Assembly (NCBI GenBank): GCA_017643395.1
Contig: JAEPNP010000001.1
Location: 1,611,001 to 1,675,000 of the forward strand
Length of the DNA: 64,000 nucleotides
Direction of reading: 5' to 3'
DNA from: Rhodothermales bacterium
Lineage (GTDB): Bacteria; Bacteroidota; Rhodothermia; Rhodothermales; UBA10348
Position 1 is the stretch's first letter. Each line of letters starts with the position of its first letter. Under the pieces are notes generated by a model that was not told the origin of the DNA, did not search any database, and saw nothing but the letters and a program-made list of their open reading frames with translations. Shown here in pieces: positions 49,150-55,248 of this stretch. Position numbers and translations under genes: made by a program.

Positions 49150-50556
49150 TCACGCTGGACGCAATCTGCGTTCGAGTCGGTCCAGTTCGACAACGAATGC
49201 GGGATCCGTGTCGATCCGGGCCTGCACGGCTCGACAGGCGTGGATCACCGTGGAGTGATCCCGGCCACCGAACCGGCGGCCGATCGCCTCAAGCGACAGG
49301 GAGGTCATCTGTTTGCAGAAGTGCATGGCCACGTGGCGCGCATCGACAATGGGCCGCTTGCGGCTCTTTCCGATGAGCTGCTCGACCGTCATGCCGTAGG
49401 CTTCGGCTACCGTGTCCCGGATCTCCGCCGCTGACGGCGTGCGCCGTTTGGACGTGGAGATCACATCAGACAGCAGCGGCTGGACGACCTCCAGGGTCAG
49501 TGGGGAGTCGTCTATGTGCCGGGAGGCCAGGATGCGGTTGAGCGAACCTTCCAGGACACGGATGTTGTCCGTGACGTTGGCGGCTATGTACTCGATGATT
49601 TCAAACGGGAGATCCAGGCCGTGGCGATTTGCACCACGTTGCAGGATTGCGATGCGGGTTTCAAAGTCCGGCGGCTGTACGTCGGCACTGAGACCCCATC
49701 GGAATCGAGAAAGCAGTCGTTCCTCAACGCCCTTGATCTCGGACGGGGGCCGATCCGCGCACAGCACGATCTGGGCTCCGCCCTGGTGGAGGTCGTTGAA
49801 CAGATGGAAGAACTGCTCCTGGGTCTTCTCCTTACCGCTGAAGAACTGGATGTCGTCAACGATCAGGACGTCGATCTCCCGGAATGACCGGGCAAACTCG
49901 CCCAGCATGTTGTGCTGGACGGCGTGAACAAAGCAGTTGGTGAATGCCTCGCTCGTGAGGTAGAGCACGTTCAGCTCCGGGTGCGCATCGGCTGCCAGGT
50001 TACCGATGGCATGGGCCAGGTGGGTTTTGCCCAGGCCCACCTTCCCGTAGATCAGGAAGGGGTTGAAACTGGTTGCTCCGGGACGTTCGGCGACTGCGAG
50101 CCCTGCACTCCGGGCAAGCCGGTTGCAGTCGGCCTCGATGAAGTCGTCGAAGGTATAGGCAGGGTTGAGCGTAGCGGGGCGGGCCGGCGGCGCCTTCGCC
50201 GGCCCGGGCCTTTGAGAAGGTATCTCTGGCGCGGGGGTGGTTTCGGGTGGCTTTGAAGCGGAATTGCCTGAGTCGGGCGAACTCTGATGTCCAGGCCCCA
50301 GGACCCTGAAATGGATCTCGGGGGATCGGCCGTCGATGTCGGCAATGGCTTCCCGCAACAGGTCGGAGTAGTGGCGGGAAACCCACGTGCGATGGAAGTC
50401 ATCGGGGACTCCGAGTGTCACGCTGGGTGAGTCGGAATCCGTTTCAAAATCCAGTAGCTCTACCGGTCTTATCCAGGTATTGAACGGCTGAGCCGGCACG
50501 GCGCGTTGTAGCGAGTCCTTGCACTGTTCCCAGAGCGAGACGGACGCTGACGTCAT
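49150..50556 (-). CDS. dnaA: Chromosomal replication initiator DnaA
   Basis: 468 residues from the ATG at 50556. Domain I (1-70), a Pro-rich linker (~85-130), then AAA+ with Walker A GKVGLGKTH (171-179) and Walker B LIVDDIQF (231-238), sensor residues and LLSRFRWGL. The C-terminal domain IV carries the DNA-binding signature FGGRDHSTVIHACRAV. DnaA binds DnaA boxes and opens the origin. No dnaN or gyrB follows; the neighbours are a glycosylase (convergent) and bcp. A DnaA-box cluster lies just upstream at 50652-50831. Confidence 0.97.
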   Translation of the reverse strand: MTSASVSLWEQCKDSLQRAVPAQPFNTWIRPVELLDFETDSDSPSVTLGVPDDFHRTWVSRHYSDLLREAIADIDGRSPEIHFRVLGPGHQSSPDSGNSASKPPETTPAPEIPSQRPGPAKAPPARPATLNPAYTFDDFIEADCNRLARSAGLAVAERPGATSFNPFLIYGKVGLGKTHLAHAIGNLAADAHPELNVLYLTSEAFTNCFVHAVQHNMLGEFARSFREIDVLIVDDIQFFSGKEKTQEQFFHLFNDLHQGGAQIVLCADRPPSEIKGVEERLLSRFRWGLSADVQPPDFETRIAILQRGANRHGLDLPFEIIEYIAANVTDNIRVLEGSLNRILASRHIDDSPLTLEVVQPLLSDVISTSKRRTPSAAEIRDTVAEAYGMTVEQLIGKSRKRPIVDARHVAMHFCKQMTSLSLEAIGRRFGGRDHSTVIHACRAVQARIDTDPAFVVELDRLERRLRPA

Positions 50557-50651
50557 GCGGGCTAAGGTGGGTTGAAGAGAATAAAAGGGGAGGGGCGAAC
50601 CCGACCATGGTAGGTTGTCCGCCCGACCCACTTCAACCTTCCAGGCGGCTA

Positions 50652-50831
50652 CTTATCCACCCAGAATCCCCTCCTTTCCACAGACGCTCGTGTGGAAAAA
50701 AACCACCATCAAAATCGTGTGGAGCAGTTGCTCTGGGGGCCTACCGGGCTGATTGCGAAATAGCACGCTTCCGAAAGCATGCCCGACTCCGTGGGCGGCA
50801 CCCTTCCCGCACCGTGCCAGCGTTATCCACA
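50652..50831. other. DnaA-box cluster upstream of dnaA: candidate oriC
   Basis: In the 292-bp gap between dnaA and bcp: a perfect TTATCCACA at 50823-50831, TGTGGAAAA at 50691-50699 (reverse of TTTTCCACA, full match to TTWTNCACA), TTATCCACC at 50652-50660 (one mismatch), CTTTCCACA at 50674-50682 (one mismatch) and a weaker site near 50718-50726. An A-rich run (50694-50702) is present but no long AT-rich unwinding region. It may be oriC or a self-regulatory dnaA promoter. Confidence 0.6.
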
Positions 50832-50848
50832 CGTGATCGGCACGGAGG

Positions 50849-51313
50849 TCAGAGGCCGAACCGCTCCATGATTTCTGCGGCGTGATTGCCCACCTTGGGC
50901 TTTTTGATGATGTCCACCAGCGTGCCGCTCTCATCAATCAGATACGTGCTGCGAACGGTTCCCATGTACTTCTTTCCGTACATGTTCTTTTCGCGCCGCG
51001 CCCCGTACGCATTGAGAACCTCGTGCTCGGTGTCGGCGATCAGCGGGAAAGGCAGGTCAAACTTCTCGGCGAACTTCGCGTGCTTGGCGGCGGGGTCGTC
51101 GGAGACGCCCACGATGACCACTCCGGCGTCCTGAAGCGCCTCAAAATTGTCGCGCAGATTGCAGGCTTGCTTGGTGCATCCCGGAGTGTTGTCCCGCGGG
51201 TAGAAGTAGAGCGCCACTTTCTTGCCGCGCAGCTCATCGGAAGAAACATGACCGTCCTGCGTGGGGCCGGCAAAGGGCGGAGCGGGGGCCCCGATTTCTG
51301 GAGTGCTACTCAT
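50849..51313 (-). CDS. bcp: Thioredoxin-dependent thiol peroxidase Bcp/PrxQ
   Basis: 154 residues, a typical PrxQ. The peroxidatic Cys C46 lies in YPRDNTPGCTKQAC and the resolving Cys C51 five residues later, the alpha-2 type. Other motifs: VIVGVSDDPAAKHAKFAEKF, LPFPLIADTEHEVLNAYG, and RSTYLIDESGTL. It reduces peroxides with electrons from thioredoxin. Its ATG overlaps the stop of an upstream VOC gene as ATGA, so they are co-translated. Confidence 0.95.
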   Translation of the reverse strand: MSSTPEIGAPAPPFAGPTQDGHVSSDELRGKKVALYFYPRDNTPGCTKQACNLRDNFEALQDAGVVIVGVSDDPAAKHAKFAEKFDLPFPLIADTEHEVLNAYGARREKNMYGKKYMGTVRSTYLIDESGTLVDIIKKPKVGNHAAEIMERFGL

Positions 51314-51684
51314 GATTTCAGTTCGGAAAACGTCAGCAGGATACCGTCCATGTCCTCGATGGTGAACTCGAACAGTCCGAACAGACGGGGTTCGAGATCT
51401 CGCACGAGAGGCACGGTGCCCTGTATGCGATTGTACAGACCCCGAACATCGGCAATCGGGATGTGAAGGATGATCCGGTCATCGAGCGGAGCCTGCCGGT
51501 AATCGACCAGGGAGTCCCCCGACACGGATCTGAGCACGATGCGCAGTTCGCCGGCGCGCAGGAAGGCGCGGGTGACATCATCCTTGCCCGTTATGCGGAC
51601 CAGCTCAAATCCCAGCACCTGCTGGTAGAACTCAACCGAGCGGTTGATGTCCGAGACCGGGAAGGAGGGGATGAGGCCTTTCAT
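51310..51684 (-). CDS. VOC family protein (glyoxalase/bleomycin-resistance fold)
   Basis: 124 residues from the ATG at 51684 (MKGLIPSFPVSDINRSVEFYQQVLGFELVRI). One VOC half is clear there, and the second is IILHIPIADVRGLYNRIQGTVPLVRDLEP followed by LFEFTIEDMDGILLTFSE. Family members include glyoxalases, dioxygenases and antibiotic-binding proteins; this sequence does not tell which. First gene of the VOC-bcp operon. The 83 bp to the divergent radical-SAM gene contain the shared promoters. Confidence 0.85.
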   Translation of the reverse strand: MKGLIPSFPVSDINRSVEFYQQVLGFELVRITGKDDVTRAFLRAGELRIVLRSVSGDSLVDYRQAPLDDRIILHIPIADVRGLYNRIQGTVPLVRDLEPRLFGLFEFTIEDMDGILLTFSELKS

Positions 51685-51767
51685 GGGGCCGGGAAAATAG
51701 AGAACGCTGCAGACACGGGGAGGCCAAGGTTGCGCAAACCGCAAACATATGTGCAGAAACATGTGCG

Positions 51768-53336
51768 ATGCTGCAAGGTGAAATGCGGGTGGCAGACCTC
51801 AAGCATCATCGACGCGGGCGGGGCGCCGGAATCAATCCCGCCAACCGGTTCGACAGACTCTCGGTGGAGTTGGACCCGTCGGAGTTGGAGGAGGGCGAAC
51901 TGCGCACTGTGCCCACGCAGTACCTGACGGACGCCTCCCGGTCGGTGCTGTCTGAGAATTCAAGTCCGGATGTGCCGTTCCGGTACTCGCTGAATCCTTA
52001 TCGAGGCTGCGAGCATGGCTGCGTGTACTGCCTCGATCCCGGCACGCCGGTACTCATGGCCGATTCCTCAGCAAAGGCCATCGCAGATCTAGTGCCCGGC
52101 GATGAGATCGTTGGGACCCAAAAGGTGGGGGCCTATCGACGTTTCGTGAACACCCGGGTATTTGCTCATTGGTGGACACGAAAGCCGGCCTACGAGGTAG
52201 GCCTGGCCGACGGAACGTCCATCGTAGCCAGTGGCGACCACCGGTTCCTGACCGAACGCGGCTGGAAGTATGTGACGGGCGCGATGGCTGGTCCCGGTCG
52301 GCGGCCATATCTGACGACGAATAATCGGCTGATGGGGGTTGGCGAACTACCACGTCCAATGGGCGACCCCGCCATCTACAGGAAACGCTCTATCGCAGGC
52401 AAAGCCCTGAAGACGACCGACGACCTGCGGGTCGTGTCGATCACCCCGGTCGGTGAGAGGGACCTTGTTGACATCACGACAGGCACTTCAGACTTCATTG
52501 CGAACGGCCTGGTCAGTCACAACTGCTACGCGCGCCCCTCCCACGAATACCTGGGGTTCTCTGCGGGCCTGGACTTTGAATCCCGCATCGTCGTGAAACA
52601 CGACGCACCACGACTGCTGGCAGAGACCTTCGAGCGCCCGTCGTGGCAGCCGCAGGTGGTGGCGCTGTCCGGCAATACCGATGCCTACCAACCTGTCGAG
52701 CGCAAGCTCAAGTTGACCCGGCGCTGCCTCGAAGTATTCCACGACTATCGTAACCCGGTGGCCATTATCACCAAGAACCACCTGGTCACGCGCGATCTCG
52801 ATCTGCTTGGCGACCTGGCGTCCCTGGGTGCCGCCAGCGTCTTTGTGTCCATCACCAGCCTGAAAGATGAGGTGACCGGCAAGATGGAGCCCAGAACCTC
52901 ACGCGTTGGGCGAAGACTGGAGGCCATTCGCGCACTGAGCGAAGCGGGCGTGCCCACCGGAGTCATGGTGGCTCCGGTCATTCCGGGGCTGACAGACGAG
53001 GAGATGCCGGCCATCCTCGAAGCCGCGCGGGAGGCCGGCGCGCAGCGTGCGGCGTATATCGTGGTCAGGTTGCCCGGCACGGTCAGTCACCTGTTCGAGG
53101 AATGGCTCAAGCGTGAGTATCCGGATCGTGCTGCCAAGGTGATCAATCGTGTGCGGTCGCTTCGAGAGGGCAAGCTCAACCACTCCGACTTTGGCGTGCG
53201 CATGCGGGGGACAGGACAGTGGGCCGAACTCTTCAGCCGTCTGTTCAGGATGACAACGGACCGGCTGGGGTTCGACCGTCAGGGGCCGCCGTTGAACGCC
53301 GGACACTTCAGGAGGAGGCAAGGCGAGCTATTCTGA
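51768..53336 (+). CDS. PA0069/Rv2578c-type radical SAM protein interrupted by an intein
   Basis: 522-residue precursor. Host part: GRGAGINPANRFDRLSVELD, then LNPYRGCEHGCVYC, where C81 and C85 are the first two cysteines of the CxxxCxxC iron-sulfur motif. A mini-intein follows at residues 88-252, and the host resumes with C253 YARPSHEYLGFSAGLDFESRI. The TIM-barrel (VVALSGNTDAYQPVERKLKLTRRCLEV, VAIITKNHLVTRDLDLL, GVPTGVMVAPVIPGLTDEE) is intact. Without the intein the protein is ~357 residues, normal for the family. It cleaves SAM to a radical; the substrate is unknown. Start at ATG 51768, or at a second ATG five codons on. Confidence 0.93.
   Translation: MLQGEMRVADLKHHRRGRGAGINPANRFDRLSVELDPSELEEGELRTVPTQYLTDASRSVLSENSSPDVPFRYSLNPYRGCEHGCVYCLDPGTPVLMADSSAKAIADLVPGDEIVGTQKVGAYRRFVNTRVFAHWWTRKPAYEVGLADGTSIVASGDHRFLTERGWKYVTGAMAGPGRRPYLTTNNRLMGVGELPRPMGDPAIYRKRSIAGKALKTTDDLRVVSITPVGERDLVDITTGTSDFIANGLVSHNCYARPSHEYLGFSAGLDFESRIVVKHDAPRLLAETFERPSWQPQVVALSGNTDAYQPVERKLKLTRRCLEVFHDYRNPVAIITKNHLVTRDLDLLGDLASLGAASVFVSITSLKDEVTGKMEPRTSRVGRRLEAIRALSEAGVPTGVMVAPVIPGLTDEEMPAILEAAREAGAQRAAYIVVRLPGTVSHLFEEWLKREYPDRAAKVINRVRSLREGKLNHSDFGVRMRGTGQWAELFSRLFRMTTDRLGFDRQGPPLNAGHFRRRQGELF
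52029..52523 (+). mobile_element. Mini-intein (165 residues) in the radical SAM gene
   Basis: It starts with C1 in CLDPGTPVLMADSS and ends VSHN, followed by Cys+1. Hint-domain blocks are visible: block A (CLDPGTPVLMADS ... LVPGDEIVG), block B (GTSIVASGDHRFLTERGWKYV, with the conserved His), and F/G (RVVSITPVGERDLVDIT ... DFIANGLVSHN). The region between B and F is only ~60 residues with no LAGLIDADG or HNH motif, so the homing endonuclease is absent. Splicing joins CEHGCVY to CYARP and restores the CxxxCxxC site. Base composition resembles the host gene, suggesting long residence. Confidence 0.93.
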
Positions 53337-53412: not shown

Positions 53413-55248
53413 ATGACCGCCCCTGCGCCCGTCCGCGCACGGTTTACAGCTCTCCTTCTTGGATGGATTGACGCCTTCCTGCCGAGAGGCGTCGTGCAGC
53501 CGGACGTTCGGCTGCGCATGCGGCTGGTGGTCGTATGCTCGTTCGGGTTGGCATTGTTCGCTGCATTCTTCGGACTCGTGGCGGCAACCCAGCAAGGCGC
53601 ATTCGGCCCGATCGCTGTGTTGTTGTTGGGCGGCGCCTTCGCGGCGACGGCACTGCCCCTGGTCTTGCGGAGGACCGGCTCCCGGGTGCTGGCGGGCACT
53701 CTGCTCTGCGCAGAGTTTGCGCTACTGGTCGGCATAGTGGCCTACCTCGGCAACGGATTCGATGCTGCGGTGCTGATCTGGATTCCAGCCGTGCCGCTGT
53801 TGGCTGCCTTCCTTGTAGGTCCCCGAGCGGCCGTGGCGCTTGCCTCGGTGACTGTCGCAGAGGTTGCACTGCTTTACGTGCTGAAGCAGGCGGGCCTGCA
53901 GGCCGAACCTTCGTTTTCATCGGAGCAGGTGGAGGCGACGAGATTTCTGGCGCTTATCTCCGGATGCATTCTCGCGGCCTTTCTGGGTTGGCTTTACGAG
54001 AGCCAGTCCCTGGTGACATTGCGAAGGGCAGCCCAGCGCACCCGCATTCTGCATACCATCGGCCGCTCGGTGCTGTCGGCCTCGACCGCGGAAGAGATCG
54101 CGGTGGCCGCGCTGGTCCGTCTTGGCATACTCGTGCAGAGCACGCGGTCCGCGATTCTCGAATACGACGACGAGGGCAACTATGCCCGTGTCCTGGCGGT
54201 GAGACTTCACGGCGAAGCCGAGATGGGGTCCGGGCGGCGCATTCCCAGGGATGTGCTCGGGCATCCGCGCAAACCTGCGGGCGATGCGGTCATCTACGGA
54301 CTCGCCGAGGGTGCCGAGCCGATCCCTTCACGCCTGCGGGTTCCTCTGGAGGTGGACGGAGCAAATCTCGGGCTTCTGGACCTGGGTGCACCGACAGCCC
54401 GAGCGTTTGATGCCGACGCAGAGGCCATCGCCCATGAAGTGGCGGACATGCTGGCGCTTGCCCTCAGGCAGAGGCGCTACGAACGGGAACTGGTCCGGGC
54501 CAAGGAGCGGGCCGAAAAGTCCGAGCAGCTGCAGAACGCCTTGCTAACCAACATGAGCCACGAGGTGCGCACGCCGCTTGCGGGGATCATGGGCATTGCG
54601 TCCGTGCTCCAGGAGGAAGTGGGCGGCGATCTGCGCGAGATGGCCAACATGATTGAAATCAGCGGCGAGCGACTGTTCAATACACTTGACTCGGTAATCG
54701 ATCTCGCGCAGATCGAGAGTGATGTGCTGACGTTTGAGGCGGTTCCGTTCGATGTGGTCGCGTGCGCCAGGGAGGTTGCCTCCGTCTTTGAGCGCGCCGC
54801 AACGGCCAAGGGTCTGGTGTTCTCTGTGGATGCCGATGAGGACGAGGTGCCGGTATTCGCGGACGAGGGCTGGACCCGCCGGGTGCTGCACTGCCTGGTG
54901 GACAACGCCGTGAAGTTCACCGAGTCAGGATCCATCAGGCTCATCGTGAGCGCCACTCGACAGGCGACCATGATCCGCGTGCACGATACAGGAATCGGGA
55001 TCAGTCCCGGATTCCAGCCTGCGGCGTTTGACGCCTTTCAGCAGGAGTCGTCGGGTATGGATCGCACCCACGAAGGGAGCGGGCTGGGACTGGCGCTGGC
55101 CGACAGACTGACCAACCTGATGGGTGGAACGCTTACGGTCGAGAGTTCTCAGGGGATCGGATCCACGTTCACGCTTCTTCTGCCGCGGCCTCCCAAACAG
55201 CCCGCGCCGACCGGTCGGCATCGCTCCGGATTTGGAACTCGCCGTTAA
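53413..55248 (+). CDS. Membrane histidine kinase with GAF domain
   Basis: 611 residues. Six membrane segments occupy ~35-200. A GAF-like domain follows (~210-350: ILHTIGRSVLSASTAEEIAVAALVRL, LRVPLEVDGANLGLLDLGAP). HisKA carries the acceptor His in LLTNMSHEVRTPLAGIMGI, and HATPase_c shows LVDNAVKFTESG, VHDTGIGISPG and GSGLGLALADRLTNLMGG. It senses an unknown cue at the membrane and phosphorylates a regulator encoded elsewhere. It starts 76 bp after the radical-SAM stop. Its final TAA overlaps the stop of the convergent DUF3052 gene. Confidence 0.92.
   Translation: MTAPAPVRARFTALLLGWIDAFLPRGVVQPDVRLRMRLVVVCSFGLALFAAFFGLVAATQQGAFGPIAVLLLGGAFAATALPLVLRRTGSRVLAGTLLCAEFALLVGIVAYLGNGFDAAVLIWIPAVPLLAAFLVGPRAAVALASVTVAEVALLYVLKQAGLQAEPSFSSEQVEATRFLALISGCILAAFLGWLYESQSLVTLRRAAQRTRILHTIGRSVLSASTAEEIAVAALVRLGILVQSTRSAILEYDDEGNYARVLAVRLHGEAEMGSGRRIPRDVLGHPRKPAGDAVIYGLAEGAEPIPSRLRVPLEVDGANLGLLDLGAPTARAFDADAEAIAHEVADMLALALRQRRYERELVRAKERAEKSEQLQNALLTNMSHEVRTPLAGIMGIASVLQEEVGGDLREMANMIEISGERLFNTLDSVIDLAQIESDVLTFEAVPFDVVACAREVASVFERAATAKGLVFSVDADEDEVPVFADEGWTRRVLHCLVDNAVKFTESGSIRLIVSATRQATMIRVHDTGIGISPGFQPAAFDAFQQESSGMDRTHEGSGLGLALADRLTNLMGGTLTVESSQGIGSTFTLLLPRPPKQPAPTGRHRSGFGTRR

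Follow-up and report, generated by a model that had tools for sequence, protein, structure and literature searches.

What a segment of 165 residues does inside the iron-sulfur motif of a radical SAM enzyme, how it came there, and whether its removal might be controlled are the questions raised by a gene of a Rhodothermales bacterium (GenBank assembly GCA_017643395.1). The gene lies in a stretch of 64,000 nucleotides, analysed as a whole and called the window below, and the coordinates of its parts are collected in Table 1. Judging from sequence, we consider it very probable that the segment is a class 1 cis-splicing mini-intein of the Rv2578c/PA0069 third-cluster-cysteine family, which was acquired horizontally in a Rhodothermales lineage and has lost its LAGLIDADG endonuclease.

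Table 1. Parts of the interrupted gene, in window coordinates
Feature	Position	Strand	Remarks
ORF of the intein-interrupted precursor, PA0069-family radical SAM protein	51768..53336	+	522 aa plus stop
N-extein	51768..52028	+	ends NPYRGC(-7)EHGC(-3)VY, with the first two cysteines of CxxxCxxC
Mini-intein	52029..52523	+	165 aa, C1 ... HN, without endonuclease domain; in frame, no stop
Intein Cys1	52029..52031	+	takes the place of the third cysteine before splicing
Block B, SGDH	52230..52241	+	intein residues 68-71; His71 invariant in 79 homologs
Residual linker	52344..52424	+	about intein residues 106-132, LAGLIDADG site of full-length relatives; boundaries approximate
Blocks F and G, DITTGTSDFIANGLVSHN	52470..52523	+	
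C-extein	52524..53333	+	opens with Cys+1, the genuine third cluster cysteine of the host

The interrupted enzyme and its insert

The precursor, for which the ATG at 51783 is a possible true start, matches NF033668 (rSAM_PA0069) over the whole protein with 456.8 bits against a cutoff of 360, and the host is therefore a member of the PA0069 family, as the initial annotation had supposed. Pfam Radical_SAM matches it with 62.1 bits and the SPL profile weakly, while the radical SAM part of the precursor model also resembles the structures of spore photoproduct lyase and NifB. There are five cysteines in the precursor (81, 85, 88, 253 and 320). The unspliced motif reads C81-EHG-C85-VY-C88, in which C88 is the Cys1 of the intein, and once the exteins are ligated the host C253 would replace C88; the insert does split CxxxCxxC at its third cysteine, as first described. 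With a slash marking the splice junction, the N-extein ends in ...NPYRGCEHGCVY/C and the C-extein begins with C/YARPSHEYLG; the last intein codon is AAC at 52521-52523, the host Cys+1 codon follows at 52524-52526, and the spliced product would carry the ligated junction peptide CEHGCVYCYARPSHEY. The calculated masses are 39.6-40.2 kDa for this product, in line with the 39-40 kDa expected beforehand, and 17.9 kDa for the intein. The neighbouring genes on the minus strand are divergent (49150-51762) and encode DnaA, an AhpC/TSA peroxiredoxin and a glyoxalase-superfamily protein, among which the peroxiredoxin gene adjoins probably by coincidence; a histidine kinase gene lies downstream on the plus strand (53413-55248).

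The insert starts with Cys, ends with HN and is followed by the host Cys, which are the termini of a class 1 intein. On the insert alone, the intein N-terminal profile TIGR01445 scores 26.4 bits, above its cutoff of 24.5; the C-terminal profile also matches, with a score under its cutoff, and Pfam Intein_splicing matches with an E value of 7e-6, under the gathering score. NF038136 gives 195.7 bits, with residue 1 of the insert at profile position 76, and the best sequence matches in the PDB are inteins of the DnaB type and gp41-1. The block-B His71 (ASGDH71), block-F Asp148, H164 and N165 are all present and invariant across 79 aligned homologs; block-B TxxH reads SxxH here, likewise in 74 of the 79, and the splicing residues are the same as in endonuclease-bearing relatives. 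Cys1 is the sole cysteine of the intein. Modelled together with short flanking segments, the insert has a predicted HINT fold (mean pLDDT 77.9), and the cyanobacterial DnaB mini-inteins NpuDnaB (4o1r) and Ssp DnaB (1mi8), which share this fold, are among its best structural matches with a match probability of 1.00, although they are only 21-24% identical to it and sit in a different host protein. Overall, the mini-intein first proposed at 52029-52523 is confirmed with boundaries exact to the base, and the C1, block-B His and final HN-C on which splicing was said to depend are all in place.

The insertion site in relatives and in other bacteria

Related genomes were compared, as suggested in the initial annotation. 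The junction is readable in 22 relatives, including one congener, and in each the host gene runs continuously through GCEHGCxYC[YF]AR with no insert; another congener, whose gene lies at a contig end, matches both sides of the site with the insert absent. The intein is seen in the window genome only, both among the 60 relatives searched and among 394 genomes sampled from the phylum; three other genomes of the phylum give weak matches at 35-38% identity, with E values from 2e-8 to 8e-6, located in different and longer ORFs of 734-1565 aa. In the host tree, the window host groups with the insert-free congener (100/99), nested among insert-free relatives of its order, and because of this grouping the intein appears to have arrived alone: the sequences indicate that the intein moved and the host gene did not. 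Transfer of a whole gene from an intein-bearing donor is ruled out by the same tree. The closest matches to the intein are in Microbacteriaceae, with 64% for the locus L035; in the intein tree the window intein forms a long branch (0.56) whose position among inteins is not resolved there, and therefore no donor can be named. The G+C contents of the intein (0.61) and of the exteins (0.62-0.63) are uninformative as a mark of recent transfer.

To view the intein in a wider range, we scanned a collection of 84,980 species genomes, which yielded 194 relatives, and read out the best 80. In all of these 80, the insert starts at the codon of the third cysteine and Cys-7, Cys-3 and Cys1 are invariant, and in all 78 loci where it is readable the C-terminal end is HN/C[FY]AR. 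That places the same element at the same position in no fewer than 80 further bacterial genomes. The hosts are of two types, Rv2578c in Actinomycetota, and PA0069 in Pseudomonadota, Myxococcota, Trueperaceae, Rubrobacter and other Actinomycetota. The placement had been suggested to be special; instead, it is the rule of an intein family, as the best 80 of 194 loci show. The kind is already known, as had been noted, since NCBIfam holds a model, NF038136, named 'intein-containing Rv2578c family radical SAM protein'. Its members carry a homologous intein at the same codon, and two of our loci, L035 and L059, exceed its cutoff of 700 bits; the whole window protein scores 441.8 bits, under this cutoff, because its host is of the PA0069 type (NF033668). 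The window intein thus belongs to the homologous set of NF038136, and its host does not. The same intein at the same codon is also found in five PA0069-type hosts, L041 from Myxococcota, L047 and L104 from Pseudomonadota, L073 from Actinomycetota and L083 from Trueperaceae, which score 436-478 bits against NF033668. Unlike the window intein, those of L073, L083 and L104 have the full length of 346-348 aa, while those of L041 and L047 are mini-inteins like it but retain other residues at the deletion. Among the papers searched, none names inteins together with PA0069, and none of those found for pairs of inteins, radical SAM and Rv2578c is about this insertion as far as titles or abstracts tell. 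The finding is new for Rhodothermales; the novelty expected for this lineage holds modestly, in a sole case among the 394 phylum genomes, for an element of known kind.

Related inteins do occur on virus-like contigs, which does not imply viral delivery of the window intein. Two viral contigs, L115 and L116, share one translated ORF (2881-4920 in L115 coordinates) with an intein that is 45% identical to that of the window over 108 residues and likewise lies at the third cysteine of a CxxxCxxC motif (NPYVGCSNQCNY/C...HN/C). This intein is full-length, with a LAGLIDADG match of 20.0 bits, just below the Pfam cutoff of 22.5. Unlike the window host, its host is neither PA0069 nor Rv2578c by NCBIfam; the N-terminus matches phrog_13321 (unknown function), with no other match. 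An alignment-based viral scan found no further contigs, a search of a plasmid collection gave no match, and phage records yielded nothing closer than distant inteins of portal and terminase genes.

The window genome holds two other inteins, a mini-intein in DnaB (RESG/CLTGES...VVHN/SIEQ; L126 280-2283; G000:C1:1027435) and a long one in DnaE (YGFNK/CVVGST...IVHN/SHS; L127 1-3228; G000:C4:249372), the length of which would accommodate an endonuclease. It also has a microbial rhodopsin gene (G000:C3:295678-296352). A genome of the same order as the window's (G038) codes for a protein identical to xanthorhodopsin 3ddl, which comes from Salinibacter ruber, and this points to Rhodothermales as the order.

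Endonuclease loss and selection on the splicing domain

No homing endonuclease domain is found in the insert, either by Pfam scan or by alignment with full-length relatives, which bears out the earlier statement that the endonuclease is gone. Both ends are readable in 78 inteins, divided into 17 mini forms of 154-181 aa and 61 longer ones of 283-349 aa; the set was ranked by likeness to a mini-intein, which biases it toward mini forms. Pfam LAGLIDADG_3 is above cutoff in all four long inteins scanned (L059, L104, L083 and L053) and not found in the two mini ones scanned; for the remaining inteins, length decided the status. On the intein tree, mini and long forms are intermixed, with at least 13 changes of state, a rough count, as the tree has 141 columns and many poorly resolved forks. 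Pairs of mini and full sisters with good support, such as L037/L088 (98), hold whatever the count, and the remnants at the deletion junction differ between mini forms. Because so many changes are needed, endonuclease loss appears to be recurrent; loss is the likelier direction, while the change count alone cannot separate it from gain. In the window lineage, the intein was probably still endonuclease-bearing when it was gained horizontally, and LAGLIDADG would have been lost after that. The initial annotation took the missing endonuclease as a sign that the intein is fixed; this is the weak point of that reading, since the intein is seen in one genome only among the 60 relatives searched and loss appears to recur.

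Purifying selection seems to act on the splicing domains: eight pairs give a dN/dS of about 0.08-0.21, the window against L035 giving 0.16, though dS is saturated or nearly so in distant pairs. Such selection could favour a readable precursor instead of splicing.

Splicing and its possible control

From the residues and fold described above, we infer the course of splicing as follows. Cys1 would make a linear thioester, the acyl group would pass to Cys+1, Asn165 would cyclise, and the exteins would join, by which Cys+1 completes CxxxCxxC. This probably proceeds constitutively in a reducing cytoplasm. That the insert instead stays in the mature enzyme is extremely unlikely: its open reading frame alone speaks for retention, against the relatives that run uninterrupted through the junction and the full set of splicing residues. 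A refinement of the mini-intein explanation, and not an exclusive rival to it, is that splicing is gated by redox state, where oxidation would form a disulfide between Cys-3 and Cys1 that blocks the first step, so that an oxygen-sensitive enzyme would stay inactive until a reducing state returns. Such a block is possible, and there is precedent in a radical SAM protein: according to two reviews (PMC3922620, PMC10663303), a native Cys-3/Cys1 disulfide controls the activity of the MoaA intein of Pyrococcus abyssi, and a designed Cys-3 trap functions in Ssp DnaE. A position of the MoaA intein, too, at the third cluster cysteine would fit Cys-3 as the second ligand; MoaA is of another radical SAM family than the window host. 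Both cysteines are present in the window protein and in all relatives read (best 80 of 194), and the redox-trap structure 3nzm is among the matches of the intein model. However, both positions are set by the host motif, which makes the pair inevitable: Cys-3 is an obligatory ligand of the host cluster and Cys1 the obligatory nucleophile of the intein, and therefore their conservation is expected even without regulation and is uninformative on it. The window intein has no further cysteine, and the precursor model has low pLDDT flanking Cys-3 (under 50 at residues 80-85). We thus treat redox gating here as a testable hypothesis built on host-imposed positions, which are not evidence for it, and think it rather unlikely.

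Gating by a cluster or metal is considerably more doubtful. Here, before splicing, CxxxCxxC would use Cys1 as its third ligand to bind iron, zinc or [4Fe-4S], and binding would mask Cys1 and delay splicing. The motif is formally complete before splicing, and reversible zinc inhibition of mycobacterial DnaB splicing is reported in PMC7360933; but Cys1 is followed by LDPGT of the intein and not by YARPS of the host, it is part of the intein active site, and the precursor model gave no structural support. The resemblance of the unspliced motif to a cluster site, pointed out at the start, is correct as letters but not special, being equally so in every family member.

By itself the window case is ordinary, and the value lies in the set. 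An intein allele at one catalytic cysteine, in several phyla and two host types and with at least 13 transitions between mini and full forms, provides matched pairs, with which one may ask whether endonuclease-less inteins persist through regulation of the host; redox control is directly testable in them because the trap cysteine is always present. A broader and improbable reading is that radical SAM enzymes may offer inteins a general niche at their third cluster cysteine, with Cys-3/Cys1 as a built-in redox lock. One and the same codon would then have received homologous inteins in Rv2578c, in PA0069 and in the radical SAM-like protein of the virus-like contigs, and the MoaA intein would have entered separately. 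If that were true, the repeated survival of endonuclease-less forms would mean that hosts keep inteins for regulation.
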